In this document: one piece after another, positions 10,244 to 50,587 of the stretch
How positions within the stretch are numbered: position 1 is the first letter of the stretch
How the letters are laid out: every line of letters begins with the position of its first letter
DNA from: a virus
Virus record (IMG/VR): IMGVR_UViG_3300034356_001766
Location: 1 to 64,000 of that record
Reading direction: 5' to 3' (one strand)
Length of the DNA stretch: 64,000 nt
Made by a program: the position numbers and the translations under genes
The notes under the pieces: generated by a model
The model's input: the letters and a program-made list of their open reading frames with translations, nothing else
Told to the model about the DNA's origin: nothing
Databases searched by the model: none

Positions 10244-11176
10244 ATGGAAATAGAAAATAAAGTAGGATGTCACTGCGTAGTGAGTCTATCCGGAGGAATG
10301 GATTCCTCTACGTTGCTGCTTAAGGCATTAACTGAATTTGATACTGTCACGGCAGTTTCATTTGACTACGGTCAAAAGCACAGAGTAGAGCTTGATCGAG
10401 CTCAAGATTTGGTAAACTATCTAAATGGCAGAGCTGATGAGACTAAGTATAAAAGTGATTTAGCAGAAGTTATTATGCATCACTTCCCTAAAGTCAACTA
10501 CCAGGTAATTAAGCTTGATGGCCTGAGCCAGCTCCTAAACTCGGCCCTAGTAACAGGAGGTGCCGAAGTTCCGGAAGGTCACTACGCATCCGAGAATATG
10601 AAAGCGACAGTAGTACCTAACAGAAACAAAATTTTTAGCTCAATCACCCAAGCCATCGCTTTATCTATAGCAAATGAAAAACAAGAAGACTGCTCCATCG
10701 CCCTTGGAATCCACGCCGGAGACCATGCCATCTACCCTGACTGCAGACAAGAGTTCAGAGACGCTGACGACCACGCATTTCGTATGGGTAACTGGGATAG
10801 CGATCGGGTATCTTATTGGACTCCTTACCTGGATGGTGATAAGTTCACTATCCTAGAAGACGGAGAGAAGTTGTGTAAGGAGCTAGGGCTTGACTTTGAT
10901 GAAGTATATTCACGCACTAATACTTCCTACAAGCCAATCCTTCTAGAGGTAGAATCAGACACCCCAGGAAAAAAAGTAATGAATGTAGGTATGTGGAATC
11001 AAGGCTACTACAAATGGTACTCAGATTATAAATCAGCTTCATCAGTAGAACGAGTTGAAGCATTTATCAAGCTAGGGCGTCCCGATCCTGCACCTTATGC
11101 TGATGAGACCGGCCCTGTGACTTGGGAGCACGTAGTAGGGGAAGTCTCAAAGGTTCTTGCAGCTGTAGAGAAATAA
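10244..11176 (+). CDS. queC: QueC-like 7-cyano-7-deazaguanine synthase lacking the zinc Cys tetrad
   Basis: QueC converts 7-carboxy-7-deazaguanine (CDG) to preQ0 using ATP and ammonia. 310 residues, longer than the usual ~230. The ATP-pyrophosphatase loop SGGMDSST, FDYGQKH and the VPNRNKIFSSIT block are intact. The normal C-terminal zinc site (a Cys before Tyr, then CGxCxxC-x-ER) is replaced: TNTSYKP and DYKSASSVER carry Ser, Asp, Ser, Ser at the four Cys positions, while the following EAFIKLGRPDPAPY fits QueC well. Either the structural zinc is dispensable in this subfamily or the enzyme does a related reaction. Start fits family. Queues before queD/queE in the same direction; first gene of the modification locus. 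Confidence 0.85.
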   Translation: MEIENKVGCHCVVSLSGGMDSSTLLLKALTEFDTVTAVSFDYGQKHRVELDRAQDLVNYLNGRADETKYKSDLAEVIMHHFPKVNYQVIKLDGLSQLLNSALVTGGAEVPEGHYASENMKATVVPNRNKIFSSITQAIALSIANEKQEDCSIALGIHAGDHAIYPDCRQEFRDADDHAFRMGNWDSDRVSYWTPYLDGDKFTILEDGEKLCKELGLDFDEVYSRTNTSYKPILLEVESDTPGKKVMNVGMWNQGYYKWYSDYKSASSVERVEAFIKLGRPDPAPYADETGPVTWEHVVGEVSKVLAAVEK

Positions 11177-11188
11177 TTTAAAGAGAGC

Positions 11189-11219
11189 TTGTCTCTCCCA
11201 CTATTTATAACTATATTTA
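11189..11219 (+). promoter_or_regulatory. Promoter TTG-N20-TATATTTA
   Basis: TTG 11189-11191 in the loop of a hairpin (AGAGA/TCTCT, 11182-11196) and TATATTTA 11212-11219, spacer 20 nt. Drives the lipoprotein-queD-queE operon; the 5' leader is the element at 11222. Confidence 0.7.
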
Positions 11220-11221
11220 GA

Positions 11222-11247
11222 GTGTCGGAGCACCACTATAAAAACAC
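11222..11247 (+). promoter_or_regulatory. Shared 5'-leader element, copy 1
   Basis: 26 nt right after the -7 box, starting GTGTCGGAGCACCAC and ending TAAAAACAC. It matches 15112-15137 (before folE) at 23 of 26 positions. GTG and CAC can form a tiny hairpin. As both copies begin at the predicted transcription start, a shared RNA-level control or stability element is likely. Confidence 0.6.
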
Positions 11248-11250
11248 CCA

Positions 11251-11844
11251 ATGAAAAAGTTACTTCTATTTTTGCCCTTAATCTGGGCTTGTGAAACGAT
11301 CGAGCCAGCTGCTCCTGAGCCATGCCAGGAATGCATCACCTCCCATCGCGTGGACACAGTCCAGCATCCCGGCACCTACCTCCAGGACGGATACTGGCAT
11401 TTAAAGTACTCCGGCCTTATCTACTTCCAGGTCATAGGTCAGCTAGATTCCATACATCCTAGATATGTTATAAATGGAGTACCCTTATTAGAAGTAACAT
11501 ATGATAGCGATACCTGGTATGTGTTTGATACCATTGCTATGCAAATACCTCTATACTCTCCTTTTACCTCACAGTACACCTCCCCGAACTTTAACTACCC
11601 CATCTCGGTAGGAGATACTACGATCTATATCACCAATCCTAACTACATTGTAAATGCGGTAGGGTACTCGTTCGGGAGTACAAATTTTGTAAATGCTATG
11701 CATACATACCAGCCCCGGTGCGAGGTCCTAGTATTCGAAGAAATGATTGGAGATACGATCTCAGTTTTCATCCGCACACGGTACAACTACGATACCGGTA
11801 AACAAAAAATAGTAGGAGACACACTTAAAGTTATAATAGAATGA
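11251..11844 (+). CDS. Lipoprotein
   Basis: 197 residues; signal peptide MKKLLLFLPLIWAC with lipobox and mature start ETIEPAAPEPCQEC. The mature part is beta-rich with two further Cys close to the N-terminus. Unusual place, leading an operon that contains queD and queE. Overlaps the next gene by 4 nt. Function unknown; envelope location inferred from the signal. Confidence 0.75.
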   Translation: MKKLLLFLPLIWACETIEPAAPEPCQECITSHRVDTVQHPGTYLQDGYWHLKYSGLIYFQVIGQLDSIHPRYVINGVPLLEVTYDSDTWYVFDTIAMQIPLYSPFTSQYTSPNFNYPISVGDTTIYITNPNYIVNAVGYSFGSTNFVNAMHTYQPRCEVLVFEEMIGDTISVFIRTRYNYDTGKQKIVGDTLKVIIE

Positions 11845-12098
11845 GCAAAAAACAGCTGCTGACCGAACCGGTCCTCCCTAAGGAGAGAATCCTTACTTCC
11901 AGGTTCCTGAACCCTGAATTTGTACACACCACAAAGAGTCTAGAGAAGATGCCTGACCAGAAGTGGCACCAGATCATCTCCTTCATCAAGTCCGGAGTGA
12001 GGATTGTAGGTTACGGAATCATTCCTTTCGATTTGGTAGCTGCGGCGATCGTTCTTATATTTAGTGAAGTGATCGGCATTATCGAAGAACTGGTTTAA
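11841..12098 (+). CDS. Small membrane-associated phage protein
   Basis: 85 residues: a polar first half (LPKERILTSRFLNPEFVHTT) and a hydrophobic segment at about 54-78 (IVGYGIIPFDLVAAAIVLIF). Not recognised. ATGA overlap with the lipoprotein suggests a functional pair. Confidence 0.6.
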   Translation: MSKKQLLTEPVLPKERILTSRFLNPEFVHTTKSLEKMPDQKWHQIISFIKSGVRIVGYGIIPFDLVAAAIVLIFSEVIGIIEELV

Positions 12099-12108
12099 AA
12101 TTATTAAA

Positions 12109-12570
12109 ATGAGTTATCAAGCAACTAAAGTATTTGACGGCTACTCGACGGTGTTCCGTCAATGGAAAGCTGAAGGGACTCACTGCCGATTCCTACACGG
12201 GTACGGAGTAAGTCTCAAGGTATGGTTCGAAGGCGAACTAGACGAAAGGAACTGGGTATGGGATTTCGGAGGTATGAAACGTGCTGTAGGTAATATAGAC
12301 GGAATGAATCCTAAGACATGGATGGATTATATGCTCGATCATACCACCATTATAGCCGAAGATGATCCTGAGCTTGAAAACTTTAAAGCAATGCACGAGA
12401 GAGGACTTATTCAGTTGAGAGTCATCCCTGCTACGGGAGCAGAACGCTTTGCAGAATACTTCTACGGGAAGTTAAACGATTTCGTCCAGGCTGAGACCCA
12501 GCACCGGGTGAGAGTAGTCCAGGTAGAGTTCCGGGAGCATGAGAAGAATACAGCAATTTATAAATCATAA
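12109..12570 (+). CDS. queD: QueD-type 6-carboxy-5,6,7,8-tetrahydropterin synthase, phage variant
   Basis: Second step of preQ0 synthesis: dihydroneopterin triphosphate to CPH4. 153 residues. The core THCRFLHGYGVSLKV corresponds to the E. coli QueD region with catalytic Cys and zinc His residues; WDFGGMK, LDHTT and the late VEFREHEKN correspond to the DF-x-x-LK, LDH and Glu motifs. Of the canonical zinc His triad, the AAH His is not visible and HGH reads HGY, so metal binding must differ. I recall cyanophage QueD-like proteins with the same HGYG form. Adjacent to queE with 2 nt spacing. Confidence 0.85.
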   Translation: MSYQATKVFDGYSTVFRQWKAEGTHCRFLHGYGVSLKVWFEGELDERNWVWDFGGMKRAVGNIDGMNPKTWMDYMLDHTTIIAEDDPELENFKAMHERGLIQLRVIPATGAERFAEYFYGKLNDFVQAETQHRVRVVQVEFREHEKNTAIYKS

Positions 12571-12572
12571 CC

Positions 12573-13355
12573 ATGGCATTAAAGAGAGTTGAAGATTATA
12601 GTAAGATTCTACCTATTGTAGAGCTTTATACCTGTATACAGTCGGAAGGTTCAAGAGCAGGTAGACCGACTGTCGCCGTTAGGACTACCGGCTGTACTCA
12701 CCGCTGCTACTTCGGTGAAGGGGGCTGGTGCGATTCTTGGTATACTAGTATCCATCCTGAGAAAGGTAAATATAGTTTTCAAGATATTATTAATATTTAC
12801 GATGCTAATCCTGAAATTAAGGAGATGATGCTTACGGGAGGTTCTCCTACTATGCACCCCGCAATCGTGAACGAACTAACTCACTTTGCAAATGAAAGGC
12901 AAATCATCATTACTATTGAGACTGAAGGCTCTGCTTTCCTCGAAACTGATTACCCTATTGGCCTTATTAGCTTCAGCCCTAAATTTAGTAATAGCGTACC
13001 TGTTTTGGGAGCTACTACACCCTTAGGAAGTACTGTAGATCAAAAGTTTATCGATACTCATAATCGCTTTAGACTCAATAAAGATTCTATTAAGCAGTCA
13101 ATGGCTTACCATTCTGACTATCATATGAAGGTAGTTGTTAATCCAGTTGAACATCCAGATGTTTGGACTGAGATTAGATCATTTATGGATGAGCTAGAGG
13201 TACCAAAAGACAAGATATGGATTATGCCCCCGGGTGATAATCGTGAAGAACTAATCCGTGTTTACCCTATGGTGATTAATTGGTGTACTGCTAATATGTA
13301 CAACTTCACAGGCCGGGAACATATCATTGCTTTTGATACTAAAAGAGAAGTCTAA
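12573..13355 (+). CDS. queE: QueE 7-carboxy-7-deazaguanine synthase, radical SAM
   Basis: Third step: CPH4 to CDG with a [4Fe-4S]/SAM centre. 260 residues. The usual start VELYTCIQSEGSRAGRPTVA (cf. E. coli EMFQTLQGEG) is followed by GCTHRCYFGEGGWCDSWY: the cluster Cys are spaced C-x3-C-x7-C instead of C-x3-C-x2-C. TGGSP (canonical TGGEP) contacts SAM. The end (KDKIWIMPPGDNREE) matches the family's product-binding region. Overlaps the next ATG (TAATG). Confidence 0.9.
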   Translation: MALKRVEDYSKILPIVELYTCIQSEGSRAGRPTVAVRTTGCTHRCYFGEGGWCDSWYTSIHPEKGKYSFQDIINIYDANPEIKEMMLTGGSPTMHPAIVNELTHFANERQIIITIETEGSAFLETDYPIGLISFSPKFSNSVPVLGATTPLGSTVDQKFIDTHNRFRLNKDSIKQSMAYHSDYHMKVVVNPVEHPDVWTEIRSFMDELEVPKDKIWIMPPGDNREELIRVYPMVINWCTANMYNFTGREHIIAFDTKREV

Positions 13356-13534
13356 TGCCTTACATAATTCTTAAACACACCACCATCAACGGTAGTCCCA
13401 GGACTATCCTTGTAAACGATAGTGAAGGAATTTGTATGGAGTTTACCACTTTTGAAAGTGCTGCTAAGCTAGCAGAGCTTTTCCAGGCCAACTCTACCTC
13501 CGGGAATATCTACGAAATAAAAGAGCTAAAATAA
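13355..13534 (+). CDS. Small hypothetical protein, 59 residues
   Basis: Starts in the TAATG overlap with queE and ends in the same kind of overlap with the next gene, so translation coupling is likely. Alpha/beta, soluble (MPYIILKHTTINGSPRTILV). Not recognised. Confidence 0.55.
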   Translation: MPYIILKHTTINGSPRTILVNDSEGICMEFTTFESAAKLAELFQANSTSGNIYEIKELK

Positions 13535-13710
13535 TGCCGCACAACTACCTTCAGGTACTTCATCAGCTATGGGCTCTTAAGATCCTAGAACCTTCCGGCA
13601 TCATAGCCGCTATACATCCTTACGGATACAGACTAAACTACATCACCCTTGACGGTTTAGGGGTAGAGAGTGAGAATGAAAAGTTTCAATTCAAGCACGG
13701 AGTCCGGTAA
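13534..13710 (+). CDS. Small hypothetical protein, 58 residues
   Basis: Second of two short coupled genes after queE (MPHNYLQVLHQLWALKILEP). Not recognised. Confidence 0.5.
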   Translation: MPHNYLQVLHQLWALKILEPSGIIAAIHPYGYRLNYITLDGLGVESENEKFQFKHGVR

Positions 13711-13713
13711 AGC

Positions 13714-13902
13714 ATGAAACTCGGAGAGACAATAAACGTAGGAGATGATTGGTACAAAATTTTTAGAACAGTTAGAGAAGATCGCCAATGGGATGCTGAA
13801 CTTCTTAAACAGTACTGGTTTTGTACACATACCTTCCGTAAGGATGGTGTGCTCTATTTTTGTAGAGAGATACCGAAAGTTGAATTTGAAGAAATAATTT
13901 AG
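13714..13902 (+). CDS. Small hypothetical protein, 62 residues
   Basis: Starts 3 nt after the previous stop. Aromatic-rich (QYWFCTHTFRKDGVLYFCREI); beta-type; not recognised. Confidence 0.5.
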   Translation: MKLGETINVGDDWYKIFRTVREDRQWDAELLKQYWFCTHTFRKDGVLYFCREIPKVEFEEII

Positions 13903-13924
13903 TGTTTTTAGAAACTAACTTAAT

Positions 13925-13984
13925 ATGAAACGTTTTATCAACAAACTTATAAGAGCATTTTTTAAATTTATTCAATACCACTAG
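13925..13984 (+). CDS. Possible 19-residue basic peptide
   Basis: MKRFINKLIRAFFKFIQYH: an amphipathic, cationic helix, directly before the secreted nuclease gene. Only context supports it. Confidence 0.3.
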   Translation: MKRFINKLIRAFFKFIQYH

Positions 13985-13986
13985 CA

Positions 13987-14580
13987 ATGAAAAAATTACT
14001 ACTCCTACTTTTACTTCCTATCTCTCTTTTTGCACAGCTACGAGATAGCGTCTATTTCAACAATACCCATTTCGTTATAAACTACTCCGAAACTCTGGAA
14101 GGACCAAGATCTATTCGATATACGGTACTGTGTCCAACCGGGACAGCCTCAAGATCGGGTATGGAATTCTATAAGGAGAAAAAGATTCATACTTCAGACC
14201 ACAAAGATTATGAAGCAAATGTATGGGATAAAGGACATATGGTTCCTGCTGCATCATTCAACTGCAACCGAGATATGCTATTCTCTACCTTTACTTATAT
14301 AAACTCTAGCTTGCAGCACCAAAGCCTTAACAGAGGAGTTTGGAAGAAGCTCGAGGTCCGGGAAAGAGAATTAGCTACAAAAGGAAGTTTAAGGGTCTTT
14401 ATTAGAATAGAGTACCCGACTGAACCCGTCAGAGTTACTACCGGTGCTGCTATACCTTTAGGGTACTACAAAGAAATAAAAGTTGGAAATAACAGAGAAT
14501 GTTACTATTTTAAGAACGTGCAACCGAACACATCAGATCTTCAGACTTATAAATGCCCATGCAGAAATGTTATTAAATAA
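13987..14580 (+). CDS. Secreted DNA/RNA non-specific endonuclease (NUC family)
   Basis: 197 residues with a cleavable signal peptide (MKKLLLLLLLPISLFAQ), so it acts in the periplasm or outside. The active-site block VWDKGHMVPAASF is the family's D-x-GH signature (catalytic His), followed by INSSLQHQSLNRGVWKKLE with the metal-binding Asn. Expected to cut DNA and RNA without sequence preference: it could shred extracellular DNA, destroy incoming competitor DNA in the periplasm, or recycle nucleotides. Start overlaps nothing; stop overlaps the next ATG. Confidence 0.88.
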   Translation: MKKLLLLLLLPISLFAQLRDSVYFNNTHFVINYSETLEGPRSIRYTVLCPTGTASRSGMEFYKEKKIHTSDHKDYEANVWDKGHMVPAASFNCNRDMLFSTFTYINSSLQHQSLNRGVWKKLEVRERELATKGSLRVFIRIEYPTEPVRVTTGAAIPLGYYKEIKVGNNRECYYFKNVQPNTSDLQTYKCPCRNVIK

Positions 14581-15086
14581 TGCGTAACCTTTTTACACCT
14601 CAGGAAATAGATCTTAAGATTAAGATAATAGCTAAAAAGATTTCTGCCGAACACCAGGGAGATAAAACTCCCGTAGTCATGGTAGGGCTTCTCAATGGAG
14701 CGTTTATGTTCTACTCAGACTTAGTACGTAATCTATCAATTGACGTAGAGTGTGATTTTATAAGAGTCAAAAGCTATACAGCCCAGTTTAAGCAAGGTGA
14801 TATCAAGATACTTAAGGACTTAGAGACTCCTATCAAAGGTAAGCACGTATACTTGGTAGATGATATATATGATACCGGCACTACTATGAAAGCACTAATT
14901 GAGTACCTAGAGGTTAAGAAGCCTGCCTCTATCTCGATTGTAACTCTACTTCGTAGAGAAACTTCTCCGACTCCGGAACAAACCTCCTACCATGCCTTGT
15001 CTATCAAAGATGAATGGGTGGTGGGTTACGGGATGGATGATGAAAACGGTTATTCAAGAAATTTAGATGGAGTGTTTGCACTCTGA
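14580..15086 (+). CDS. hpt: Hypoxanthine/guanine phosphoribosyltransferase
   Basis: Salvages hypoxanthine or guanine with PRPP to IMP/GMP. 168 residues, normal length. PRPP motif VYLVDDIYDTGTTM and the N-terminal LLNGAFMFYSDL loop are clear. Its place inside the deazaguanine locus is notable: DpdA-type base exchange releases free guanine from DNA, and this enzyme could return it to GMP and on to GTP, the FolE substrate. That link is inference. Confidence 0.92.
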   Translation: MRNLFTPQEIDLKIKIIAKKISAEHQGDKTPVVMVGLLNGAFMFYSDLVRNLSIDVECDFIRVKSYTAQFKQGDIKILKDLETPIKGKHVYLVDDIYDTGTTMKALIEYLEVKKPASISIVTLLRRETSPTPEQTSYHALSIKDEWVVGYGMDDENGYSRNLDGVFAL

Positions 15087-15105
15087 GATAAGTTTCGTAT
15101 ATTGT
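15076..15105 (+). promoter_or_regulatory. Promoter TTTG-N19-TATATTGT
   Basis: TTG 15076-15078 (inside the end of hpt) and TATATTGT 15098-15105, preceded by TTTCG. The spacer is 19 nt, one shorter than in the other 15 promoters. Drives folE and the genes behind it. Confidence 0.6.
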
Positions 15106-15111
15106 ACAACG

Positions 15112-15137
15112 GTGTCGTAGCACCACCTTAAAAACAC
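15112..15137 (+). promoter_or_regulatory. Shared 5'-leader element, copy 2
   Basis: Matches 11222-11247 at 23 of 26 positions. GGTG (15111-15114) and CACC can pair as a small hairpin directly at the predicted transcript start. Precedes folE as the first copy precedes the queD/queE operon. Confidence 0.6.
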
Positions 15138-15145
15138 TAATTAAT

Positions 15146-15856
15146 ATGGCAGATAAAAAGCACTATGATGTTGAACTAGCTAAAGCCGGGTTCGCTAACG
15201 GCATCTCTACCCAGCTCGCTGATAAGTTCAAGAAGCATAAGATGATCGATATTCATCTTTCCGAGCAGGAGAAACACGCCATCATCCAAGACGCTGCACA
15301 GGCGTTTGGAAAGTTCCTAGATGCGCTAGGTGTTGACTGGAAGAACGATCCTAACTCCTCCGACACCCCTAACCGAGTTGCTAAGGCTTACGTAAACGAT
15401 TTATGGGCTGGACGATTCAATCCTATGCCCGCTATCACGGCATTCCCTGCCGACGACTACGACGGGATAGTCTTTGAAGGTAATATTCCTTTGACCTCTA
15501 TGTGCTCCCACCACCACCAAGCCATTCAAGGCCGGGTTCATATCGCTTATATCCCAGGTCCAGGCGGTAAAGTGATCGGGCTATCTAAACTAAACCGGGT
15601 AGTAGAGCATTTCGGCCGCCGAGGAGCAATCCAGGAACAGCTTACAGTCGCCATCCATAACGCAGTCAATACCGTTTGCGAAGATAACATCGGTGTAGCT
15701 GTTATGATTGAAGCTACTCACAACTGTGTTTCCTGCAGAGGAACAAAACACGCAGGAGCCTCTATGAAAACTTCTAAGTTATCAGGAAGCTTCTTAAACG
15801 AAGACTCAGCCCGTGCTGAATTTTATGAATTTGTAAAAGGATACTCATGCAAGTAA
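15146..15856 (+). CDS. folE: GTP cyclohydrolase I
   Basis: First step of the deazaguanine pathway: GTP to dihydroneopterin triphosphate plus formate. 236 residues. Zinc ligands are present: Cys and His in SMCSHHHQ and Cys in HNCVSCRG. The GLSKLNRVVEHFGRR block binds substrate. Overlaps the next gene by 10 nt. Confidence 0.96.
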   Translation: MADKKHYDVELAKAGFANGISTQLADKFKKHKMIDIHLSEQEKHAIIQDAAQAFGKFLDALGVDWKNDPNSSDTPNRVAKAYVNDLWAGRFNPMPAITAFPADDYDGIVFEGNIPLTSMCSHHHQAIQGRVHIAYIPGPGGKVIGLSKLNRVVEHFGRRGAIQEQLTVAIHNAVNTVCEDNIGVAVMIEATHNCVSCRGTKHAGASMKTSKLSGSFLNEDSARAEFYEFVKGYSCK

Positions 15857-16350
15857 AAAGAGTAAAATTTGTTGATGAAGTAGAAGTATTCAACAAAACG
15901 TTCGGTAAGCCTAACAACTACACCCCTACCGTCCCTAATGATAAAAAGCTTACTGACTTTGTAGTTAGCTTTATTAGAGAGGAGACTGATGAACTTGAGC
16001 AGGCCATCAAGGATAAAGATATCGTTGAGGTACTGGACGCGATATGTGATCTTCTGTATGTCGCAGTCGGTAATGCTACTATGGTCTTCGGACTCAAGGA
16101 TAAGCTAGTCCCGGCCTACGCCGAGGTACAAGCCTCGAATATGTCTAAGAGCTGTGCTACTGTTGAAGAAGCTGTAGCTACCATCAATGAGAGATCTAAA
16201 GAGCATGGGGAGTGTTACTTCCGAAAGGTTGGTAGCCGATATGTTGTCTATCGGAAGTCTGACGATAAGGTTATGAAGTCCATAAACTACTTCGCCCCTA
16301 ACCTCGAGCAATTCTTTACCGAAGAAGAAATTAAAAAAGCCAAGCAATGA
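15847..16350 (+). CDS. MazG-like nucleotide pyrophosphohydrolase
   Basis: 167 residues. All-alpha NTP-PPase signature EETDELEQA...EVLDAICDLLYV (E-x-x-E...E-x-x-D metal site) and AYAEVQASNMSK, as in phosphoribosyl-ATP pyrophosphohydrolase/MazG-type phage enzymes. Hydrolyses a (d)NTP to NMP and pyrophosphate. C-terminal ~60 residues look like an added small domain. Could clear a non-canonical nucleotide, tune dGTP/GTP or ppGpp; which one is unknown. Confidence 0.85.
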   Translation: MQVKRVKFVDEVEVFNKTFGKPNNYTPTVPNDKKLTDFVVSFIREETDELEQAIKDKDIVEVLDAICDLLYVAVGNATMVFGLKDKLVPAYAEVQASNMSKSCATVEEAVATINERSKEHGECYFRKVGSRYVVYRKSDDKVMKSINYFAPNLEQFFTEEEIKKAKQ

Positions 16351-16535
16351 CACCCCAGGAATTAATCGATCAAAATAAAACTTTCTCAGAAGAGTTGCAG
16401 CAATGGATTGTACCTCTTATCTTTGTAGACGAAGCTCTTAGGATGAAAACTGCTCAGGAGGTCGACCAGAGTATTAAACAGCTTGAAGAAGTAATGCAAG
16501 AATTAAATTCAGTAATTAATAAGATAAATGATTAA
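16347..16535 (+). CDS. Small coiled-coil protein
   Basis: 62 residues, C-terminal heptads (IKQLEEVMQELNSVINKI). Overlaps both neighbours by 4 and 8 nt, so it is probably an operon member that accompanies the MazG-like or DpdA protein. Not recognised. Confidence 0.6.
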   Translation: MTPQELIDQNKTFSEELQQWIVPLIFVDEALRMKTAQEVDQSIKQLEEVMQELNSVINKIND

Positions 16536-17358
16536 GATAGCTCATGAAGCTCCAAAAGCCATCTTCGGTAAGATGCAAGAACTTACTGATTACGATTATG
16601 CTTTAGTGCATCTCTTTGAAGAAGATCCTGAATACCTTCAGCAGTTCAAAGACGCTTTAGCAGCAGGCAGGGAGGTTATCTTAGATAATTCTATCTTTGA
16701 ACTTGAAGAAGCTTTTGATGCCGAACGTTTTACTTACTGGATCAACGAACTTAAGCCAACCTGGTATATTGTTCCTGATGCATTAGAGAACGTAAAGAAG
16801 ACTATGTCTAATATGGCAGAGTGGAATGTTAGGTATGCTCACAAAGTACCCGTTGAATGTAAGAAGATTGGGGTTGTGCAGGGTAAGACTTATACCGAGC
16901 TCGCTAACTGCTACGATCACATGATCAATTCAGCTCAAGTTGATATGGTTGCTATCTCTTTTGACTACAGTTACTACGAGGAGAAGTTTCCTCACCCTAA
17001 TAAGTACGTCAGCTGGATGCTGGGTAGGGTTCAGCTACTAGGTCGGATGCTTAAAGACGGAGTAATTAATACTGATATGCCTCATCACCTTCTAGGTTGC
17101 GGACTACCTCAAGAGTTTCAATTTTACCGCGAAGCTAATTATGATTGGATTTACTCCTTGGATACTTCCAACCCAGTAGTCCACGGCCTGAAAGAGGTCT
17201 ACTACAAGGATCAGGGGCTATGGAATAAAGAATCTCAGAAACTCTTTACCATGATTAACTCTGAAGTAACTTCTACTCAGATGGAGGTCATTCGTCATAA
17301 TGTCTCACGCTTTAGATGGTTTGCAAATGGAAACGCGCAAGTGGGTAGCATTCTTTAG
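16528..17358 (+). CDS. dpdA: DpdA-like DNA guanine transglycosylase (TGT fold)
   Basis: Would exchange guanine in phage DNA for a 7-deazaguanine base. 276 residues. Features in keeping with the phage TGT-like family: LDNSIFELEEAF (Asp near the base pocket), a (beta/alpha) barrel strand WYIVPDAL, KKIGVVQGKTYTELANC, HHLLGCGLPQEF (TGT-like G-x-P) and SLDTSNPVVHG with a possible nucleophilic Asp. The tRNA-TGT zinc Cys site is absent, as expected for shorter phage versions. Assignment rests on these motifs and on being surrounded by folE, queD, queE, queC, queF. Downstream formyltransferase overlaps its end. Confidence 0.8.
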   Translation: MIKIAHEAPKAIFGKMQELTDYDYALVHLFEEDPEYLQQFKDALAAGREVILDNSIFELEEAFDAERFTYWINELKPTWYIVPDALENVKKTMSNMAEWNVRYAHKVPVECKKIGVVQGKTYTELANCYDHMINSAQVDMVAISFDYSYYEEKFPHPNKYVSWMLGRVQLLGRMLKDGVINTDMPHHLLGCGLPQEFQFYREANYDWIYSLDTSNPVVHGLKEVYYKDQGLWNKESQKLFTMINSEVTSTQMEVIRHNVSRFRWFANGNAQVGSIL

Positions 17359-17863
17359 TCAGACTGGTTCCGAGATCGTTCAGATCTCAGAAGCACTGGG
17401 CCGATGGCCGGATATGATTATTACCAATCGCCGGCCTGAGTCTGCTAGGATTATTAATTCCGGGATACCTGAAGATAAGATTTATTATACCTCCAATAGT
17501 CCTGAGGGGTATGAGTATTTTCATTACCTCTGTCAGGTACAAGATCCGATAGTTACTCTTCACGGATGGCTGAGAGTAGTACCAGAGGAAATTTGTACTA
17601 ATTACGAGATGTATAACGGACATCCAGGACTTATAACCAAGTACCCTGAACTCAAAGGTAAAGATCCTCAGATCCGAGCCTTCCAAGGAAATTATAACAC
17701 AGGAGGTTGCGTTATTCATAAAGTAACTCCCGGGGTAGACGAAGGAGAGATCCTTATGGAAAGAGAAGTAGGAATCAGGCTGTTGGATCATGAGGGTTTA
17801 TTTCGTATCTTGCATAAGACTTCGGTAGATATGTGGGTAGAATTCCTTAAAGAAAGGTTATGA
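17327..17863 (+). CDS. dpdN: Formyltransferase, candidate dPreQ1 N-formyltransferase (DpdN)
   Basis: 178 residues of a PurN/Fmt-type formyltransferase: start KWVAFFSQTGSEIVQI, PDMIITN, VTLHGWLRVVP, the signature NGHPGLI (family N-x-HP-S/G), ending GCVIHKVTPGVDEGEI with the Asp of the family's active site. Uses 10-formyl-tetrahydrofolate. I chose the ATG at 17327 because it aligns with the family start; an ATG at 17300 is possible. From memory, a formyltransferase named DpdN has been proposed to make 7-(formylamino)methyl-7-deazaguanine in phage DNA; between dpdA and queF this gene fits that role. Confidence 0.8.
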   Translation: METRKWVAFFSQTGSEIVQISEALGRWPDMIITNRRPESARIINSGIPEDKIYYTSNSPEGYEYFHYLCQVQDPIVTLHGWLRVVPEEICTNYEMYNGHPGLITKYPELKGKDPQIRAFQGNYNTGGCVIHKVTPGVDEGEILMEREVGIRLLDHEGLFRILHKTSVDMWVEFLKERL

Positions 17864-18378
17864 TTAAGAGATTGGCATTAGTAGGGGCTAGCAGTACCGG
17901 TAAAACGACTGTGTATGAGCTGCTTAAGAATCAGCTCCCTAAGTGGGAGTTTGTAAATGAAAGTACCCGGAGGGTAGCTCGGTATGGCTTCCCTATCAAT
18001 GAACTCGGCACTACCGAAACTCAGTTAGCTATCTCAAGCTTTCATCTAGAGGCATTACTCAAACCTTACAACCTGATCTTAGACCGCTGCTACTTAGACT
18101 TAGTAGTTTACTCCCGTCATATGCCCGGACTCTCCCAGTCCGGTCTAGAGTACATAGAAGATACTTGGAAGAGAGTCCAGGATGAATATACCCACTATAT
18201 TTATTTCCCTATCGAGTTCCAGGCGATCGATGACGGAGAAAGAAGTGTTGACGAAGATTGGAGAAAGATCATCGATCAAGAATTTAAATACCAGTTGGAT
18301 CAGACTGACAGGCATTACCTGGCTGTGACCGGCTCACCTATGCAGAGAATAAATCAAATCCTTAAATACATTAAATAA
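17860..18378 (+). CDS. NadR/Ttd14-like P-loop ATPase (AAA_28)
   Basis: 172 residues. Walker A GASSTGKTT at the N-terminus, LILDRCYLDLVVYS as the Walker-B-like/DR-x-x-LD segment, a lid with DGERSVDEDWR. Such proteins include the nicotinamide-riboside kinase domain of NadR. Lies with 4-nt overlaps between the formyltransferase and queF, so it may act on a nucleoside or base of the pathway, or on NAD(P) supply for QueF; unknown. Confidence 0.75.
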   Translation: MIKRLALVGASSTGKTTVYELLKNQLPKWEFVNESTRRVARYGFPINELGTTETQLAISSFHLEALLKPYNLILDRCYLDLVVYSRHMPGLSQSGLEYIEDTWKRVQDEYTHYIYFPIEFQAIDDGERSVDEDWRKIIDQEFKYQLDQTDRHYLAVTGSPMQRINQILKYIK

Positions 18379-19292
18379 TGGACCATAATAAGAACCAAAG
18401 TGCAGTTGTAGAGATTGCAAGCAAACACCTCGGCCAGGTAGGAGGTGCCGGGTACTCCGATCAGTACGATCCTTCGCTGCTGGTTGCGATCCCACGTTAC
18501 CTAAACCGAGAGGCTTACGGCATCAAAGAAGAGAGCCTACCTTTTATAGGAGTGGATGTCTGGAATGCTTACGAAGTCTCGGCGATCACTAAGAAAGGAT
18601 TACCGGTAGCAGGGATGCTTAAGATTGTATGTCCTGCCGACTCACCTTTCCACGTAGAGTCAAAGTCAATCAAGCTTTACCTAAACTCTTTTAACATGAC
18701 TGCTTTCGGTGAGACTGCTAGAGAGTGTATCGAGTTTATCGAAAGTCAGGTCTCTAAAGATCTTACCGACCTCCTGCAAGGAGAGGTGACTTGTAAGTTT
18801 TTTACCAGTAACGATATTCACGAGTATCAGTTTGTAGAGTTTACTCCCCTCGGTGCTTTGGTTGATCTGGATGCAGTAGAGTTTACTTCCTTCCATTCTG
18901 ATGCTACCCAGCTTAAGATCTGGCATACAAAAGAGGATGTAGTAGTTAAGAAGATTGAATCTGATCTACTTAGATCTAATTGCCGGGTGACCAATCAGCC
19001 GGATTGGGGTGATGTTTATATTCATATGATTGGTAAGAACGTTCCTGATGAGGCATCACTGGCCCAGTACATAGTCTCTCACCGCCAGGTATCTCACTTC
19101 CACGAAGAGATTTGTGAGATGATCTTTACCCACCTTACTGAGGCTTATCAGCCTGAAGGTCTGATGGTAGCATGTCTTTACACCCGAAGAGGAGGATTGG
19201 ATATTAACCCTATCCGATCAACGCACGCTAATCTGATCCCGGGCTGGTACAAAGATCCTACCAAGCGGATGAAGAAAACTTTACGACAATAA
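18378..19292 (+). CDS. queF: QueF NADPH-dependent preQ0 reductase, bimodular type
   Basis: Reduces the nitrile of preQ0 to the aminomethyl of preQ1. 304 residues, the long two-module form like E. coli QueF. The substrate/NADPH block FHVESKSIKLYLNSFNMTAF is canonical; the catalytic Cys is in SNCRVTNQPDWGDV together with the proton-relay Asp; SHFHEEICE and RRGGLDINPIRS complete the family. Presence of QueF implies the pathway goes past preQ0, consistent with the formyltransferase. Last gene before the polA promoter. Confidence 0.95.
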   Translation: MDHNKNQSAVVEIASKHLGQVGGAGYSDQYDPSLLVAIPRYLNREAYGIKEESLPFIGVDVWNAYEVSAITKKGLPVAGMLKIVCPADSPFHVESKSIKLYLNSFNMTAFGETARECIEFIESQVSKDLTDLLQGEVTCKFFTSNDIHEYQFVEFTPLGALVDLDAVEFTSFHSDATQLKIWHTKEDVVVKKIESDLLRSNCRVTNQPDWGDVYIHMIGKNVPDEASLAQYIVSHRQVSHFHEEICEMIFTHLTEAYQPEGLMVACLYTRRGGLDINPIRSTHANLIPGWYKDPTKRMKKTLRQ

Positions 19293-19295
19293 GAG

Positions 19296-19326
19296 TTGGC
19301 TCCTTCGGGAGCCTTTCTTATATTTA
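19296..19326 (+). promoter_or_regulatory. Promoter TTG-N20-TATATTTA for DNA polymerase
   Basis: TTG 19296-19298, TATATTTA 19319-19326, spacer 20 nt containing the terminator stem-loop. polA starts 5 nt after the -7 box, so its mRNA should be leaderless or have one or two leader bases. Confidence 0.7.
19298..19319 (+). terminator. UUCG-loop terminator inside a promoter spacer
   Basis: GGCTCC (19298-19303), loop TTCG, GGAGCC (19308-19313), then TTTCTT. A strong hairpin ending the queF transcript. It occupies the spacer between the -33 and -7 elements of the polA promoter. Confidence 0.7.
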
Positions 19327-19331
19327 GCTAT

Positions 19332-21665
19332 ATGTCAATAGAAAAAAAGTACTACCTCGTCACCGATAAAGAGACTGTAAACCTCTTAATCCAGCACATC
19401 CAGGAATCAAAAGTAATCGCTTATGATACCGAGACTGACTCCCTCAATATGAGGAAAGGTCAGATTATAGGATTCTCCGTATCAGGGGATATCGGGATGG
19501 GGTTTTACCTACCTACTATGGCCTGGAACCACCAGACCGGTACCCTAGATGAACTTAACATTGAAGGGGTACCTTGCCACTCTATAGCAAAAAAAATCTT
19601 ACCTATGTTAATCGGCAAGAAGCTTGTAATGCACAACGCATCGTTTGACTGCCGGTTTACTAAAAACTTTTACAAGGTTGACCTCCTGGAAAGTTTATGG
19701 GTAGATACTGCCTTACTAGTCCACACCGTCCAAGAGGAGGGAGCAGGGATGGGGGTATTCGGTCTTAAATCTCTAGCAATATCAGTACAGAATGAAATCG
19801 GACTCGACGTCGAAAAAGCTGCCAACGAAGAGCAGGTCCTACTCAAGGAATCTATTAAAGCCAATGGAGGTTCAGCTACTAAGGAAAACTACGAGATTTA
19901 CAAAGCCGACATGGAGCTTTTGGGTAAGTACGCTGCTGCTGATACCGACCTTACTCTTCGTCTGTGTAGTCATTTTATGGACGTTCTTCAACGAGAGGGT
20001 CTTGAAAAATTCTTCTTCGAAGACGAAGTAATGCCCCTCTACAAGGAGGTTACTATCCCGATGGAGGAGATGGGTGTTGACTTGAATATAGATTTGCTGC
20101 TTGAGACTAGGGATGAGATCTTAAAAGACTTAGCTGAGAATAAGCAGATCGTTCTCAAATCTCTGATAGGTACTAAGGCCGGCCAGGAATGGGTCGTAGA
20201 CACTGCTCTAAATGAGTTCCCACCCTCTAACAAAGGTACATGGGCACAGACACTAGCCGAGCGCTACTCCCTCTCTCTGCCTAAATCTGATAAGACTGGT
20301 AAGTTCTCTATAACCAAAAAGACTTTAGAGGAGCTAGAAGATTCTCCTGCTAAGGAATACTTACTAACCGGGGATCTAAACCTCTTAGATACTATGGAGG
20401 CTATGAAGATATCGATGTCTCTATGGAAGCAAAAGAACGACGGCGACTATGTTAACATTCAGTCTAAAAAGCACCTAGGAGAGATAGCATTTAAGTATAT
20501 GAATATCCGGGCTAGGTCTCAGACCGCTAAAGGTCAGGACCAGTTCGATATGGATATGTTGGAGGATTTGTCTAAGACTCACTCCTGGGCCGAGAATCTC
20601 CGGGTGTATAACAAGCTTCTTAAGATTAAGTCTACTTACATCGATCGATTTGTTGATAACGCCGAAGATGGGAAGTACTTCTTTTACTTCAAGCAGCACG
20701 GTACTGTCTCCGGCCGATACGGCTCCGACGCCCAGCAGCTACCCAAACCCAAGGAAGAGGGTGAGGACGTTCCAATTATCGTTAAGTACAATAACGCTGT
20801 TAGAGCTTTCTTGATAGCTGGAGAAGGAAGGAAGATAATCGATGCTGACTACGAGTCACTAGAACCTCACTGCTTTGCTTCAGTATCCGGGGATAGAGGT
20901 CTGCAAGATATCTTTAATAATGGATGGGACTTCTACTCTACAGTCGCTATCAAAGCCGAGAAGCTAGAACTAGATAAAGTCAACTACCCTAATGGAGTTA
21001 GTCCGGATAAAAAATCTCCAGTCTACCTTAAGAAGATCGATCCCGTTAAAAGAAATAAAGCCAAGGCCTACTCGCTAGGAATCGCTTACGGTATGGAGGC
21101 TTACGCGTTAGGAAAGTCTTTGGATATAGATCAGAAAGCAGCCCAGATACTAGTTGACGGATACTTGGATGGGTTCCCTGAGCTTAAAGCCTGGAGGATC
21201 AACTCCCGGCAGCACGTCAAAGAACATGGCTCTATTAAGAATAAAGTAGGTCGGGTGAGGCACCTACCTAAAGTCCAGAGACTCTACCTTAAGTACGGAG
21301 ATCAGATCATGGACTGGAGATATAGGAATGAGCTCGCCAATACTTACGGTAAGGAACAGGTCATGAGTATGTATAGGGATTATCGCAACGGACTTAATAA
21401 CTGCCTGAACTATCAGCTGCAGTCTCTAGCAGCGGCTGTTGTCAACCGAGCTGCTATCCAGATCAATCGGAAGTTAAAAGAGATGGGAATTGACGGACGA
21501 GTTCAGGCTCAAGTCCATGACCAGCTTATAATCAACGTTCCGGAACATCAGGCTGAGTTAGTAGCCCCTATCATAAAAGAGATCATGGAAAACACCACCC
21601 AGCTAGAAGGAGTAACTCTAAAAGCCCCTCCTGAGATTACCAATAATTGGAGGGATGGGCACTAA
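19332..21665 (+). CDS. polA: Family A DNA polymerase with 3'-5' exonuclease
   Basis: 777 residues from the ATG at 19332 (the frame extends upstream only through the promoter). Exonuclease motifs: YDTETDSL (DxE), NASFDCRF, YAAADTDL. Polymerase motif A DADYESLEPH, motif B RNKAKAYSLGIAYGMEAYALG region, motif C QVHDQL, where the usual VHDE Glu is Gln. No 5'-3' exonuclease domain, as in T7-like and many phage PolA. Replicative polymerase of the phage. Confidence 0.95.
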   Translation: MSIEKKYYLVTDKETVNLLIQHIQESKVIAYDTETDSLNMRKGQIIGFSVSGDIGMGFYLPTMAWNHQTGTLDELNIEGVPCHSIAKKILPMLIGKKLVMHNASFDCRFTKNFYKVDLLESLWVDTALLVHTVQEEGAGMGVFGLKSLAISVQNEIGLDVEKAANEEQVLLKESIKANGGSATKENYEIYKADMELLGKYAAADTDLTLRLCSHFMDVLQREGLEKFFFEDEVMPLYKEVTIPMEEMGVDLNIDLLLETRDEILKDLAENKQIVLKSLIGTKAGQEWVVDTALNEFPPSNKGTWAQTLAERYSLSLPKSDKTGKFSITKKTLEELEDSPAKEYLLTGDLNLLDTMEAMKISMSLWKQKNDGDYVNIQSKKHLGEIAFKYMNIRARSQTAKGQDQFDMDMLEDLSKTHSWAENLRVYNKLLKIKSTYIDRFVDNAEDGKYFFYFKQHGTVSGRYGSDAQQLPKPKEEGEDVPIIVKYNNAVRAFLIAGEGRKIIDADYESLEPHCFASVSGDRGLQDIFNNGWDFYSTVAIKAEKLELDKVNYPNGVSPDKKSPVYLKKIDPVKRNKAKAYSLGIAYGMEAYALGKSLDIDQKAAQILVDGYLDGFPELKAWRINSRQHVKEHGSIKNKVGRVRHLPKVQRLYLKYGDQIMDWRYRNELANTYGKEQVMSMYRDYRNGLNNCLNYQLQSLAAAVVNRAAIQINRKLKEMGIDGRVQAQVHDQLIINVPEHQAELVAPIIKEIMENTTQLEGVTLKAPPEITNNWRDGH

Positions 21666-21774: not shown

Positions 21775-22212
21775 ATGACACACATCAAGTACACCCCGTG
21801 GACTGTAGATTATACATCCACATTCGATATCCTTTTTAAGGATTTCTTTAACACAAACTCAACGTTTGTATCCCCGATCGATCAAAAGATCGGACATCCA
21901 GTAGATATTTATGAAAATGAAAAAGGGTTATTCTTCGAGATCGCCGCTACCGGCCTCTCGAAACAAGATACCAAAATCTCCATTGAAGGTGACGTCCTTC
22001 GAATTATTCACGATAAAGTGGAAGAGCAGATCGATAAGACTAAAGTTCGTTATTACAACAAAGGACTTAGTAAGCGATCGTTCAATCTAGGTTATAAAAT
22101 CGCCCGTCGATTTGATTTGAGCACCATTGATGCCCAGATGAAAGACGGATTACTAACTATTTCAATCTCTCATGCTGAAGGCAATAAGCCTCACGAAGTA
22201 AAGATTAAATAG
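21775..22212 (+). CDS. Hsp20 small heat-shock protein
   Basis: 145 residues. Short N-terminal arm, alpha-crystallin domain (PVDIYENEKGLFFEIAATGL to GLLTISI) and a C-terminal extension ending HEVKIK. ATP-independent holdase that would keep phage or host proteins soluble and pass them to the GroEL encoded 600 bp downstream. Separate leader with hairpins and its own terminator. Confidence 0.92.
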   Translation: MTHIKYTPWTVDYTSTFDILFKDFFNTNSTFVSPIDQKIGHPVDIYENEKGLFFEIAATGLSKQDTKISIEGDVLRIIHDKVEEQIDKTKVRYYNKGLSKRSFNLGYKIARRFDLSTIDAQMKDGLLTISISHAEGNKPHEVKIK

Positions 22213-22270: not shown

Positions 22271-22552
22271 ATGACAAGAGGAAAAAAAGTTGGGCATATT
22301 AAGCCGCAAATTACCATTAAGGATGAGATGATCAATCCTTACTACGTTAGTGTAGATGAGAATCAATTCACCGTTCAGATCGAAGGTTCTACTCTCCCGT
22401 TAGGGTACTACAGTACTCTGGAAGTAGCTATCAAACGTATCGCAAAATATAAGCTTGTAGAGAATCTTAATCAGTCTACTGTTGACTTGAACAGCTTCCT
22501 TAAGGCTTACGATTCCATTCTAAGTCAAATCAATAACAGAATCCCAGTATGA
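22271..22552 (+). CDS. Hypothetical protein upstream of groES
   Basis: 93 residues, first gene of the chaperonin operon. Basic start, beta-rich middle (YYVSVDENQFTVQIEG), helical end. The YYSTLE-x-AIKRI motif occurs in small phage proteins I recall without a known function. Overlaps groES by 4 nt. Confidence 0.65.
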   Translation: MTRGKKVGHIKPQITIKDEMINPYYVSVDENQFTVQIEGSTLPLGYYSTLEVAIKRIAKYKLVENLNQSTVDLNSFLKAYDSILSQINNRIPV

Positions 22553-22845
22553 AAAAATTAATTCCGCTCAATGATCGGATAGTTGTAAAACCTATCGAGC
22601 AGTCCGAGCAGATGTACGGCAATATTATTATTGCTGATATGGGCAGAGAGCGCCCGGAGATGGGTGAAGTCATCGCAGTAGGCCCTGGCCGGATGTCCGA
22701 ATACGGCAAATTCATTCCCGTCAACGTTAATGTTGGGGATGTGGTGCTGCTGCCTAAGATCGGAACTATCCGAGTAGAGTTCGACGGTGAGGAATACTAC
22801 ATCGGTCAATCAAGAGAAATCCTTTGTAAAGTAACAGAAAAATGA
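22549..22845 (+). CDS. groES: Co-chaperonin GroES
   Basis: 98 residues: IPLNDRIVVKPIEQ start, mobile-loop region QMYGNIIIADM, GEVIAVGPG, NVGDVVLLPK, IGQSREILCKV end. Caps the GroEL ring. The mobile loop lacks the usual GGI-V/L tripeptide and has YGNIIIAD, so it may be tuned to the phage GroEL. Overlaps groEL by 4 nt. Confidence 0.92.
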   Translation: MKKLIPLNDRIVVKPIEQSEQMYGNIIIADMGRERPEMGEVIAVGPGRMSEYGKFIPVNVNVGDVVLLPKIGTIRVEFDGEEYYIGQSREILCKVTEK

Positions 22846-24476
22846 GTAAGAGAGTAGAATTTTCAAATCAAGCACGCCTGAGGCTCCTAGCAGGAGTTGA
22901 GCAGCTTGCCAACGCAGTAACTTCGACATTAGGTCCTAACGGCCGGAATGTCATCATCGAACAATCAGCCGGTAACCCGACCTCAACCAAGGACGGTGTG
23001 ACGGTTGCTAAGGCGATGGAGCTAGAAGATACTATCGAGAATATGGGCGCCCAGCTGGTAAAGCAAGCATCCATTAAGACCGCTGACGGAGCCGGGGACG
23101 GTACTACTACCTCAACCCTTCTAGCGTATGAGATCTATAGAGAGGGTTTAGAGTATCTGGACTTACATAACGCCGTTGATATCAGCCGAGGAGTGGCCAA
23201 GGCTACTAAAGGAGTGGTGGAGTATCTGGAGAAGCAGGCCCGCGAAATCACTGACGAGAATCAGCTAAGACAGGTAGCTACTATCTCAGCCAACAACGAC
23301 CCAGAGGTCGGAGAGCTGATTGCTGCTGCAATGGATAAGGTAGGCCGGGATGGAGTCGTTACTATTGAAGAGTCAAGGACGGGTGAGACCTATCTAGAGA
23401 CTGTTGAGGGTATGCAATTCAATAGAGGTTACAAGTCGATATACTTTGTTACCGATAACAATAGCATGACTGCAGCTCTGACTAATCCACTGGTGCTGAT
23501 AACGGATAAAAAGGTTACCGCTGCTAAAGAGCTGCTACCTATACTAGAGGCTTGCTCGGCACAGAACAAGGCTCTGCTTATTATCGCCGATGACATCGAC
23601 GGAGAGGCTTTATCAACGCTGGTGGTTAACAAGATGAGAGGTATCTTGCAGGTAGTGGCTGTGAAGGCTCCTGAGTTCGGAGATCGTAAAAAAGCTATCC
23701 TTGAGGATATCGCTACACTGACCGGCGGTCAAGTAGTATCAGCCGAGAAAGGAATGAGACTTGAGAAGTTCAACACCGACTGGCTAGGTTCAGCCCGGAA
23801 AGTTACCATCGGAAAAGAAGAGACTACAATCGTTGACGGTAAAGGTACTTCAGAAGCTATCCAGGAACGGGTTGAAGAGATCAAAGCTATGATCGATAAC
23901 TCAAAGTCACCTTTCGAGAAAGAGTCTTTGCAGGACCGGTTAGGTAGGCTGATAGGCGGGGTAGCGATCGTTTACGTAGGAGGTCAATCTGAACTAGAGA
24001 TGAAAGAGAAAAAAGATAGGGTAGAGGATGCACTGCATGCCACTAAGGCAGCCCTACAGGAAGGCATTTTGCCAGGTGGAGGTATCGCACTGCTTAACGC
24101 CGGACGCTTCCTGGAGTCAAATAAAGGTGATATGCATTTCGCTAACACCTCTACTGAGGTCGGATACAATATCCTTCTGCAGGCCATCAATAAGCCCTTC
24201 TTTAAGATCCTGACCAATGCCGGGTATAGCGCCGAGTACTGTGACGGCATCAAGGCTAAGGTTCTTGACACGGGTAATCCCTGGCAAGGTTTTAATCTAC
24301 GGACTGAAGAGTACGTTGATATGTTTGAGGAAGGTATTATCGATCCTGCCAAGGTAACACGCCTGGCATTAGAAAATGCAGCTTCAATTGCAGGTACTAT
24401 GCTTACAACCGAATGCGTTATAAGCAACCTAAAAGAGAAGAGCAACGACCCTATGGATTTTAATTCAATGATGTAA
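22842..24476 (+). CDS. groEL: Chaperonin GroEL
   Basis: 544 residues, close to bacterial length. ATP site: LGPNGRNV, DGVTVAK, GDGTTT, and GILPGGG with late catalytic Asp. The C-terminus ends NDPMDFNSMM with no GGM repeats. A complete phage-encoded GroES/GroEL pair plus Hsp20 suggests folding needs (capsid or large enzymes) not served well by the host. Confidence 0.97.
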   Translation: MSKRVEFSNQARLRLLAGVEQLANAVTSTLGPNGRNVIIEQSAGNPTSTKDGVTVAKAMELEDTIENMGAQLVKQASIKTADGAGDGTTTSTLLAYEIYREGLEYLDLHNAVDISRGVAKATKGVVEYLEKQAREITDENQLRQVATISANNDPEVGELIAAAMDKVGRDGVVTIEESRTGETYLETVEGMQFNRGYKSIYFVTDNNSMTAALTNPLVLITDKKVTAAKELLPILEACSAQNKALLIIADDIDGEALSTLVVNKMRGILQVVAVKAPEFGDRKKAILEDIATLTGGQVVSAEKGMRLEKFNTDWLGSARKVTIGKEETTIVDGKGTSEAIQERVEEIKAMIDNSKSPFEKESLQDRLGRLIGGVAIVYVGGQSELEMKEKKDRVEDALHATKAALQEGILPGGGIALLNAGRFLESNKGDMHFANTSTEVGYNILLQAINKPFFKILTNAGYSAEYCDGIKAKVLDTGNPWQGFNLRTEEYVDMFEEGIIDPAKVTRLALENAASIAGTMLTTECVISNLKEKSNDPMDFNSMM

Positions 24477-41911: not shown

Positions 41912-42094
41912 ATGGACAACAAAAAGCTGACAAGCGTCAAAGTAGAGCAGCAGTTATTCGATGAGTTTAAAGTTCAATGCGTACGCTATAAATTTTCATT
42001 CCAAAAGTTGGCAGATAGAGCGATCTTTTTCTATCTTACGGATGATACGTTTAGAAACAAAGTACATAATCAGAACGATTTAAACATAAAATAA
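41912..42094 (+). CDS. Ribbon-helix-helix-like small protein
   Basis: 60 residues. KLTSVKVEQQLFDEFKVQCV then FQKLADRAIFFYL fits an RHH/Arc-type strand-helix-helix. Candidate transcription regulator at the border of the glycan locus. TATTTATA at 41881 precedes it. The stop overlaps the next gene's ATG. Confidence 0.62.
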   Translation: MDNKKLTSVKVEQQLFDEFKVQCVRYKFSFQKLADRAIFFYLTDDTFRNKVHNQNDLNIK

Positions 42095-44807: not shown

Positions 44808-45237
44808 GTTAACCGATTGCAAGAGATGCGGCTCCAATGCCTGCTACGAACAGCACGTCACCGACAAGCTAACGACGTGGCTATGTATGGGGTGCGGGTT
44901 TACAACCTCAACAGTTATGACTGAAGGCAGTCAAGCTACTACGAATGCTTTAGAATCTTCTCCAGAGCTCTACAAAGACCTCCTTCATAAGGACCAGGAC
45001 GGGAATATCTGGATGCCTGCTACGGTGACGTTGCCGGGCAGAGGGATGGTTTTCATAGACGGAACTACTAAGGAGAACTGGGTATGGACTGCTGTTAAGG
45101 CTGTTGAGATCCTAAAAGAGGAGCAGCACAAGTACCCTGAAGGTCAGACCCACAAAATGGATATGAAAGGAGCCCGGAACTTCAAGCAAAGAGACTTCAT
45201 GGATGCTCTAGAGGTAATTGAGTTTTACGCAATGTAA
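44800..45237 (+). CDS. Zinc-ribbon conserved phage protein
   Basis: 145 residues. CKRCGSNACY...CMGCGF is a zinc ribbon; the second half is alpha/beta (MVFIDGTTKENWVWTAVKAV). Not a sugar enzyme; I recall similar proteins in T4-like phages. Overlaps neighbours by 8 and 1 nt. Confidence 0.62.
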   Translation: MDKLTDCKRCGSNACYEQHVTDKLTTWLCMGCGFTTSTVMTEGSQATTNALESSPELYKDLLHKDQDGNIWMPATVTLPGRGMVFIDGTTKENWVWTAVKAVEILKEEQHKYPEGQTHKMDMKGARNFKQRDFMDALEVIEFYAM

Positions 45238-49824: not shown

Positions 49825-49844
49825 AAAAGAAGTTCATATATTAA
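49814..49844 (+). promoter_or_regulatory. Promoter TTG-N20-TATATTAA inside the glycan locus
   Basis: TTG 49814-49816 (in the end of the previous gene), TATATTAA 49837-49844, spacer 20 nt, TTCA before the -7 box. ATG at 49852 is 7 nt downstream. The only clear internal promoter of the locus. Confidence 0.7.
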
Positions 49845-49851
49845 ATAATTG

Positions 49852-50577: not shown

Positions 50578-50587
50578 ATTACGGACT

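Follow-up and report, generated by a model that had tools for sequence, protein, structure and literature searches.

Which base does a cassette of 7-deazaguanine genes in a phage genome supply, and is guanine exchanged for it on finished DNA or on nucleotide precursors? These questions are raised by positions 10,244 to 19,292 of IMG/VR record IMGVR_UViG_3300034356_001766, of which we analysed 64.0 of the contig's 64.7 kb (hereafter, the window). We conclude that the cassette probably makes 7-(formylamino)methyl-7-deazaguanine (formyl-preQ1; fdPreQ1 in DNA) and substitutes it for guanine in the phage DNA. The window, which among described phages is closest to Flavobacterium phage immuto (Immutovirus), is a relative of the Immutovirus-type pathway already known; the exchange of acyl enzymes and the kinase, hydrolase and salvage logic described below are new.

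A sequence-only reading had assigned seven modification genes, and all seven open reading frames (ORFs) were found intact where it had placed them, with FolE, QueD, QueE, QueC-like and QueF family matches in a single locus (Table 1). It had passed over the phosphoribosyltransferase (PRT), the MazG-like hydrolase and the P-loop kinase, as well as the loss of zinc ligands in QueC and the existence of relatives with another acyl enzyme. Other loci were sampled by scans that took the best 80 matches each, and all counts given here describe these sampled relatives. Since immuto and dozens of IMG/VR contigs hold the gene set in almost the same order, chance assembly of the cassette is excluded. In immuto (vB_FspM_immuto_2-6A, MW353175) the order is QueD, QueE, PRT, FolE, MazG, DpdA, formyltransferase, kinase, QueF, PolA, GroES and GroEL, with 68% identity to the window for the protein annotated as DpdA, 58% for the formyltransferase and 66% for QueF. 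The two differ in the place of QueC: in the window it follows ThyA, close to QueD, whereas in immuto it precedes QueD by about 11 kb. They also differ in the PRT, a hypoxanthine-guanine phosphoribosyltransferase (HGPRT) of 168 residues in the window and a shorter, divergent protein in immuto.

Table 1 Features of the modification cassette and its borders in the window
Feature	Coordinates	Strand	Evidence
QueC-like preQ0 synthase without zinc motif	10244..11176	+	PF06508 7.6e-37
QueD (6-carboxytetrahydropterin, CPH4, synthase)	12109..12570	+	PF01242 5.4e-16, phrog_2389 2e-39
QueE (7-carboxy-7-deazaguanine, CDG, synthase)	12573..13355	+	phrog_2076 4e-47
DNA/RNA non-specific endonuclease, exported-looking	13987..14580	+	PF01223 1.4e-21; same cluster in 43 loci
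HGPRT	14580..15086	+	TIGR01203 152.2 bits (cut-off 150); PDB HGPRT 2e-30
FolE (GTP cyclohydrolase IA)	15146..15856	+	PF01227 3e-44
MazG/PRA-PH-type nucleotide pyrophosphohydrolase	15847..16350	+	PF01503 2.5e-12, phrog_671 3.6e-31
Small conserved ORF directly 5' of DpdA, no assigned function	16347..16535	+	cluster 4, 75 loci
DpdA-type guanine transglycosylase, CP220/immuto group	16528..17358	+	phrog_19058 8e-48 (unnamed family), AlphaFold2 and Foldseek
N-formyltransferase, proposed preQ1 formyltransferase (DpdN-like)	17327..17863	+	PF00551 9e-10
P-loop nucleotide kinase (AAA_28)	17860..18378	+	PF13521 1.6e-15, phrog_2107
QueF (preQ0 nitrile reductase), two-domain type	18378..19292	+	PF14819/PF14489, TIGR03138 1.6e-79
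Terminator-like hairpin directly 3' of QueF	19298..19313	+	GGCTCC-TTCG-GGAGCC, then TTTCTTAT
Family A DNA polymerase (PolA), next gene after QueF	19296..21665	+	true start likely ~19332

The predicted route from GTP to formyl-preQ1

From their families and conserved key residues, FolE, QueD, QueE and QueC would convert GTP to 7-cyano-7-deazaguanine (preQ0), which QueF would reduce to 7-aminomethyl-7-deazaguanine (preQ1). QueF aligned with PDB entry 3bp1 over 278 residues (2.8e-51), with the SNCxxTNQPDWG and ESKSxKLYLNS segments in register, and its catalytic Cys and Asp and its NADPH motif are present. In QueE, the radical S-adenosylmethionine (SAM) cysteines are spaced C-x3-C-x7-C, compared with the common C-x3-C-x2-C. 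A few relatives (L160, 11360-11683; L161, 10577-10900) encode a 2Fe-2S ferredoxin between the formyltransferase and the kinase, which might supply QueE with electrons. In 7 loci FolE2 takes the place of FolE, and no locus has both. The gene set as far as preQ1 is therefore as the sequence-only reading had it, whereas its claim of a pathway free of host genes went too far, since the host must supply 10-formyltetrahydrofolate (10-formyl-THF), SAM, NADPH and ATP.

The protein encoded at 16528 was poorly recognised by sequence libraries, which returned two unnamed PHROGs and a weak match to the archaeosine tRNA-guanine transglycosylase (TGT) family TIGR00432 (0.0065). An AlphaFold2 model built from 38 relatives (pLDDT 92.7) matched TGT (3hfy, E 8e-8) and the DNA preQ0 insertase DpdA (7ui4, 1e-5) in Foldseek, with probability 1.0. 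By this model the protein belongs to the TGT/DpdA superfamily and has the TGT (beta/alpha)8 fold, in line with its original assignment. D53, D84 and D212 are invariant over the 38 sequences and presumably correspond, by motif comparison, to the catalytic aspartates of TGT. Such an enzyme would swap guanine for a 7-deazaguanine base. By sequence, it shares about 40% identity with a protein annotated as hypothetical in Campylobacter phage CP220 and related phages (E 5e-45 to 1e-41 over 94%), and Cellulophaga phage phiST and Chryseobacterium phage MA9V-3 encode distantly similar proteins. We take the CP220/immuto group to be the DpdA3 of Cui et al. 2023. Bacteria make preQ1 for tRNA with the same enzymes, and the Que genes might thus serve queuosine synthesis, with the TGT-like protein acting on tRNA. 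Neither QueA nor QueG turned up in the genes annotated or searched, however, and the TGT-like protein falls in one group with its counterpart in CP220, a phage with modified DNA, which makes a tRNA role highly improbable.

The formyltransferase ORF opens at 17300, and alignment with relatives supports the start at 17327 that had been chosen before. Its AlphaFold2 model matches the PurN fold, and the triad N97, H99 and D138 (N-x-H...D) is invariant in 32 relatives, consistent with an enzyme that would cap the preQ1 amine using 10-formyl-THF. A base and an enzyme of this kind, fdPreQ1 and DpdN, were reportedly published in 2023, and we propose that the window protein is such a DpdN-like dPreQ1 formyltransferase, with preQ1 as its likely acceptor. 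Alternatively, the final base in DNA might be preQ1 or archaeosine base (G+), with the formyltransferase serving elsewhere, for example in purine synthesis; it is homologous to PurN (TIGR00639, 3e-10), and PurN does occur in phages (phrog_9240). Yet both the window protein (39.8 bits) and that of immuto (54.3 bits), the one PurN-like gene found in immuto, fall far short of the TIGR00639 cut-off of 150.1 bits, and SQTGxE stands in place of SGxGSN, the motif through which PurN binds glycinamide ribonucleotide (GAR). Moreover, the formyltransferase was always found with DpdA and QueF: a scan seeded with it showed DpdA in 69/69 loci with enough upstream sequence, and both kinase and QueF in 66/66 with enough downstream sequence. 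Of the outcomes that would have contradicted the sequence-only reading, a 16528 protein unlike any TGT or DpdA and a 17327 protein of the PurN/ArnA type were not observed.

Several points weigh against the formyl-preQ1 assignment. First, zinc ligands are lost in two of the synthesis enzymes, which might accordingly yield another product. QueC retains SGGMDS, YGQKHRVE, VPNRN and YPDC, corresponding to the canonical motifs SGGxDS, YxQxHxxE, VPxRN and YPDC, residues of which are essential in Escherichia coli QueC (PMC13329287). The zinc motif C(x)8CxxCxxC was absent from the 22 C-termini compared, and in 30 aligned sequences none of the columns at the motif held a majority of Cys. QueD reads LHGY, with part of its zinc ligands lost, where the E. 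coli enzyme has LHGH. These oddities are conserved across the group and are unlikely to reflect decay. Second, the match of the 16528 protein to the DpdA1 profile is weak by sequence (hhalign probability 1.5%, E 0.035), and the proposed kinship to DpdA1 rests on the modelled fold. Third, a PRT was not found in CP220, so guanine salvage is not obligatory. On balance, a full set of genes from GTP to preQ1, accompanied by a TGT/DpdA-fold enzyme and by a formyltransferase tied to these genes, makes formyl-preQ1 the best prediction, as the sequence-only reading had proposed.

Exchange of the formyltransferase for a GNAT enzyme

Among 123 distinct DpdA relatives, 96 had QueF on the downstream side and 1 kb or more of upstream sequence. 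The formyltransferase was present in 92 of these 96 and absent in four, and all four carry a GNAT N-acyltransferase within the cassette, in a different arrangement each time. The GNAT is fused to the kinase in L075, follows the kinase beside an amidoligase-like neighbour (a weak match) in L078, forms a fusion with a HAD-like domain, accompanied by a VOC protein, in L165, and directly precedes DpdA in L297. The fourth locus came from a later scan, when the pattern had already been noted, and a scan with the HAD-GNAT protein returned only the three contigs already known. Conversely, no GNAT was found in the formyltransferase-bearing loci, either by a motif search of all of them, which hit only other proteins, or by Pfam on cluster representatives. 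Because both GNATs and formyltransferases act on an amine as acceptor and one replaces the other, the preQ1 amine, rather than GAR, is the likely acceptor. This exchange further argues against a formyltransferase serving purine synthesis beside a final preQ1 or G+ base, a reading that we regard as unlikely. From their gene content, the GNAT-bearing relatives are predicted to make another N-acyl-preQ1.

DNA or nucleotide as the substrate of base exchange

If guanine is swapped out, the guanine set free would be a natural substrate of HGPRT, suggesting a salvage role in which the PRT would recycle the released base. Of 61 distinct loci, 57 encode a PRT no more than 3 kb from FolE, in most cases 23-78 bp upstream of it. 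Redundant loci included, 203 loci have the MazG-like hydrolase and 9 have a dCTP-deaminase/dUTPase-like protein, and the two were not seen together. A P-loop kinase, drawn from two Pfam kinase families, adjoins DpdA in the lineages of immuto, CP220, phiST, MA9V-3 and L087/L089; beside DpdA1 it was seen in none of 10 loci, and it is absent from the DpdA2 locus of nt-1 (n = 1). Genes for a hydrolase, a modifying enzyme and a dedicated kinase are typically combined where hypermodification takes place on nucleotides, as in the hydroxymethyl-dCTP pathway of T4 and the dZTP pathway of S-2L, each with an NTP hydrolase. Since HGPRT, hydrolase and kinase resemble this logic, base exchange on dGMP has to be weighed seriously against exchange on DNA. 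The modifying enzyme of the window differs from those of T4 and S-2L in being a TGT-fold base exchanger, for which action on nucleotides is hypothetical.

On such a route, the MazG-like (or dCTP-deaminase-like) hydrolase would convert dGTP to dGMP, the small DpdA would swap the base on dGMP, and the kinase would phosphorylate the modified dNMP for insertion by the phage polymerase. This refines the formyl-preQ1 prediction and clashes only with a post-replicative step. The distribution of the kinase across DpdA groups and the mutual exclusion of the two hydrolase types speak for it, as does the compact, reshuffled operon of a second clade, which retains the kinase and PRT. In three GNAT variants, all of the first clade (L297 left out), identity of the kinase to its nearest relative falls to 35-51%, compared with 63-97% for FolE, MazG, DpdA, QueF and PolA; the kinase is also divergent in the second, formyltransferase-bearing clade, which limits an argument for co-replacement to these three variants. 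The kinase is neither universal in these phages nor exclusive to them: 7 of the 96 loci lack a recognisable kinase, and the family also occurs in Streptomyces phages with no Que genes nearby. Both facts count against the nucleotide-level route, as does the failure of isoelectric points to separate the 16528-type DpdA from DpdA1. Known TGT and DpdA enzymes, moreover, work on polynucleotides, and published work has DpdA acting at the level of nucleic acids (PMC12783734).

Comparison with studied phages bears on the same question. CP220 and CPt10 share with the window a related DpdA and an adjacent, related AAA_28 kinase; they differ in that the formyltransferase, QueF and PRT were not found there and in having an HD-kinase fusion where the window has MazG. 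Their reported base is 7-amido-7-deazaguanine (as the deoxynucleoside dADG), compared with the formyl-preQ1 predicted for the window, and it replaces 100% of dG, a further point for exchange on nucleotides, while phages of other DpdA groups show small to partial replacement (PMC8306585). As the DpdA of the window groups with that of CP220, dG replacement is probably extensive here as well. DpdA1 systems (phages 9g, CAjan, Dp-1 and others) resemble the window in their preQ0 synthesis genes and TGT-fold DNA transglycosylase, but DpdA1 is distantly related and no kinase, hydrolase or PRT adjoins it (10 loci); Dp-1 is reported to carry dPreQ1, not the formylated form (PMC6884629). Two actinophage DpdA1 genes (L250, L252) lie near ParB-like genes. 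Taken together, we consider the nucleotide-level route possible, though short of an even chance, and its full version doubtful, in which dGTP hydrolysis would feed exchange on dGMP by DpdA, the formyl or other acyl group would be added before the kinase acts, the polymerase would insert the product and HGPRT would recycle the guanine.

Neighbouring genes and significance

The cassette is bounded by a strong terminator-like hairpin. PolA follows QueF in 55 of 92 loci, contig ends cutting off others. Promoter matches were at chance level (19 seen, 20.1 expected), and an Rfam search matched only tRNAs, with no preQ1 riboswitch found. The endonuclease within the cassette is probably accessory; its N-terminus is signal-peptide-like, it contains a DKGH motif, and the phage's own DNA is possibly resistant to it. 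In 14 relatives a staphylococcal-nuclease-like protein lies between kinase and QueF (L041, 10526-10897, and 13 other loci), and in L202 (1164-2406) and L236 (8530-9769) ornithine-cyclodeaminase/mu-crystallin-like and DUF1599 (nucleotide-modification-associated) proteins lie between formyltransferase and kinase. Elsewhere, the window encodes two nucleotide-metabolism genes, part of a ribonucleotide reductase large subunit at the contig start (12-1388) and ThyA (7868), together with a small heat-shock-like protein (21775-22212), GroES and GroEL (22549-24476) and a sugar-modification island of glycosyltransferases, epimerases and an aminotransferase (42094-53431), of which immuto also has one.

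In conclusion, our results take the proposed formyl-preQ1 pathway beyond a handful of isolates, to a widespread group of aquatic phage contigs, and they describe a QueC family without the zinc site that was thought to define QueC. The replacement of formyltransferase by GNAT predicts further N-acyl-preQ1 bases in phage DNA, a question that can now be tested. Testable, too, is how complete dG replacement arises, on DNA or, as in T4 and S-2L, on nucleotides; if exchange on dGMP proved true, DpdA would be the first TGT-fold enzyme to act on a mononucleotide, which would explain complete dG replacement.

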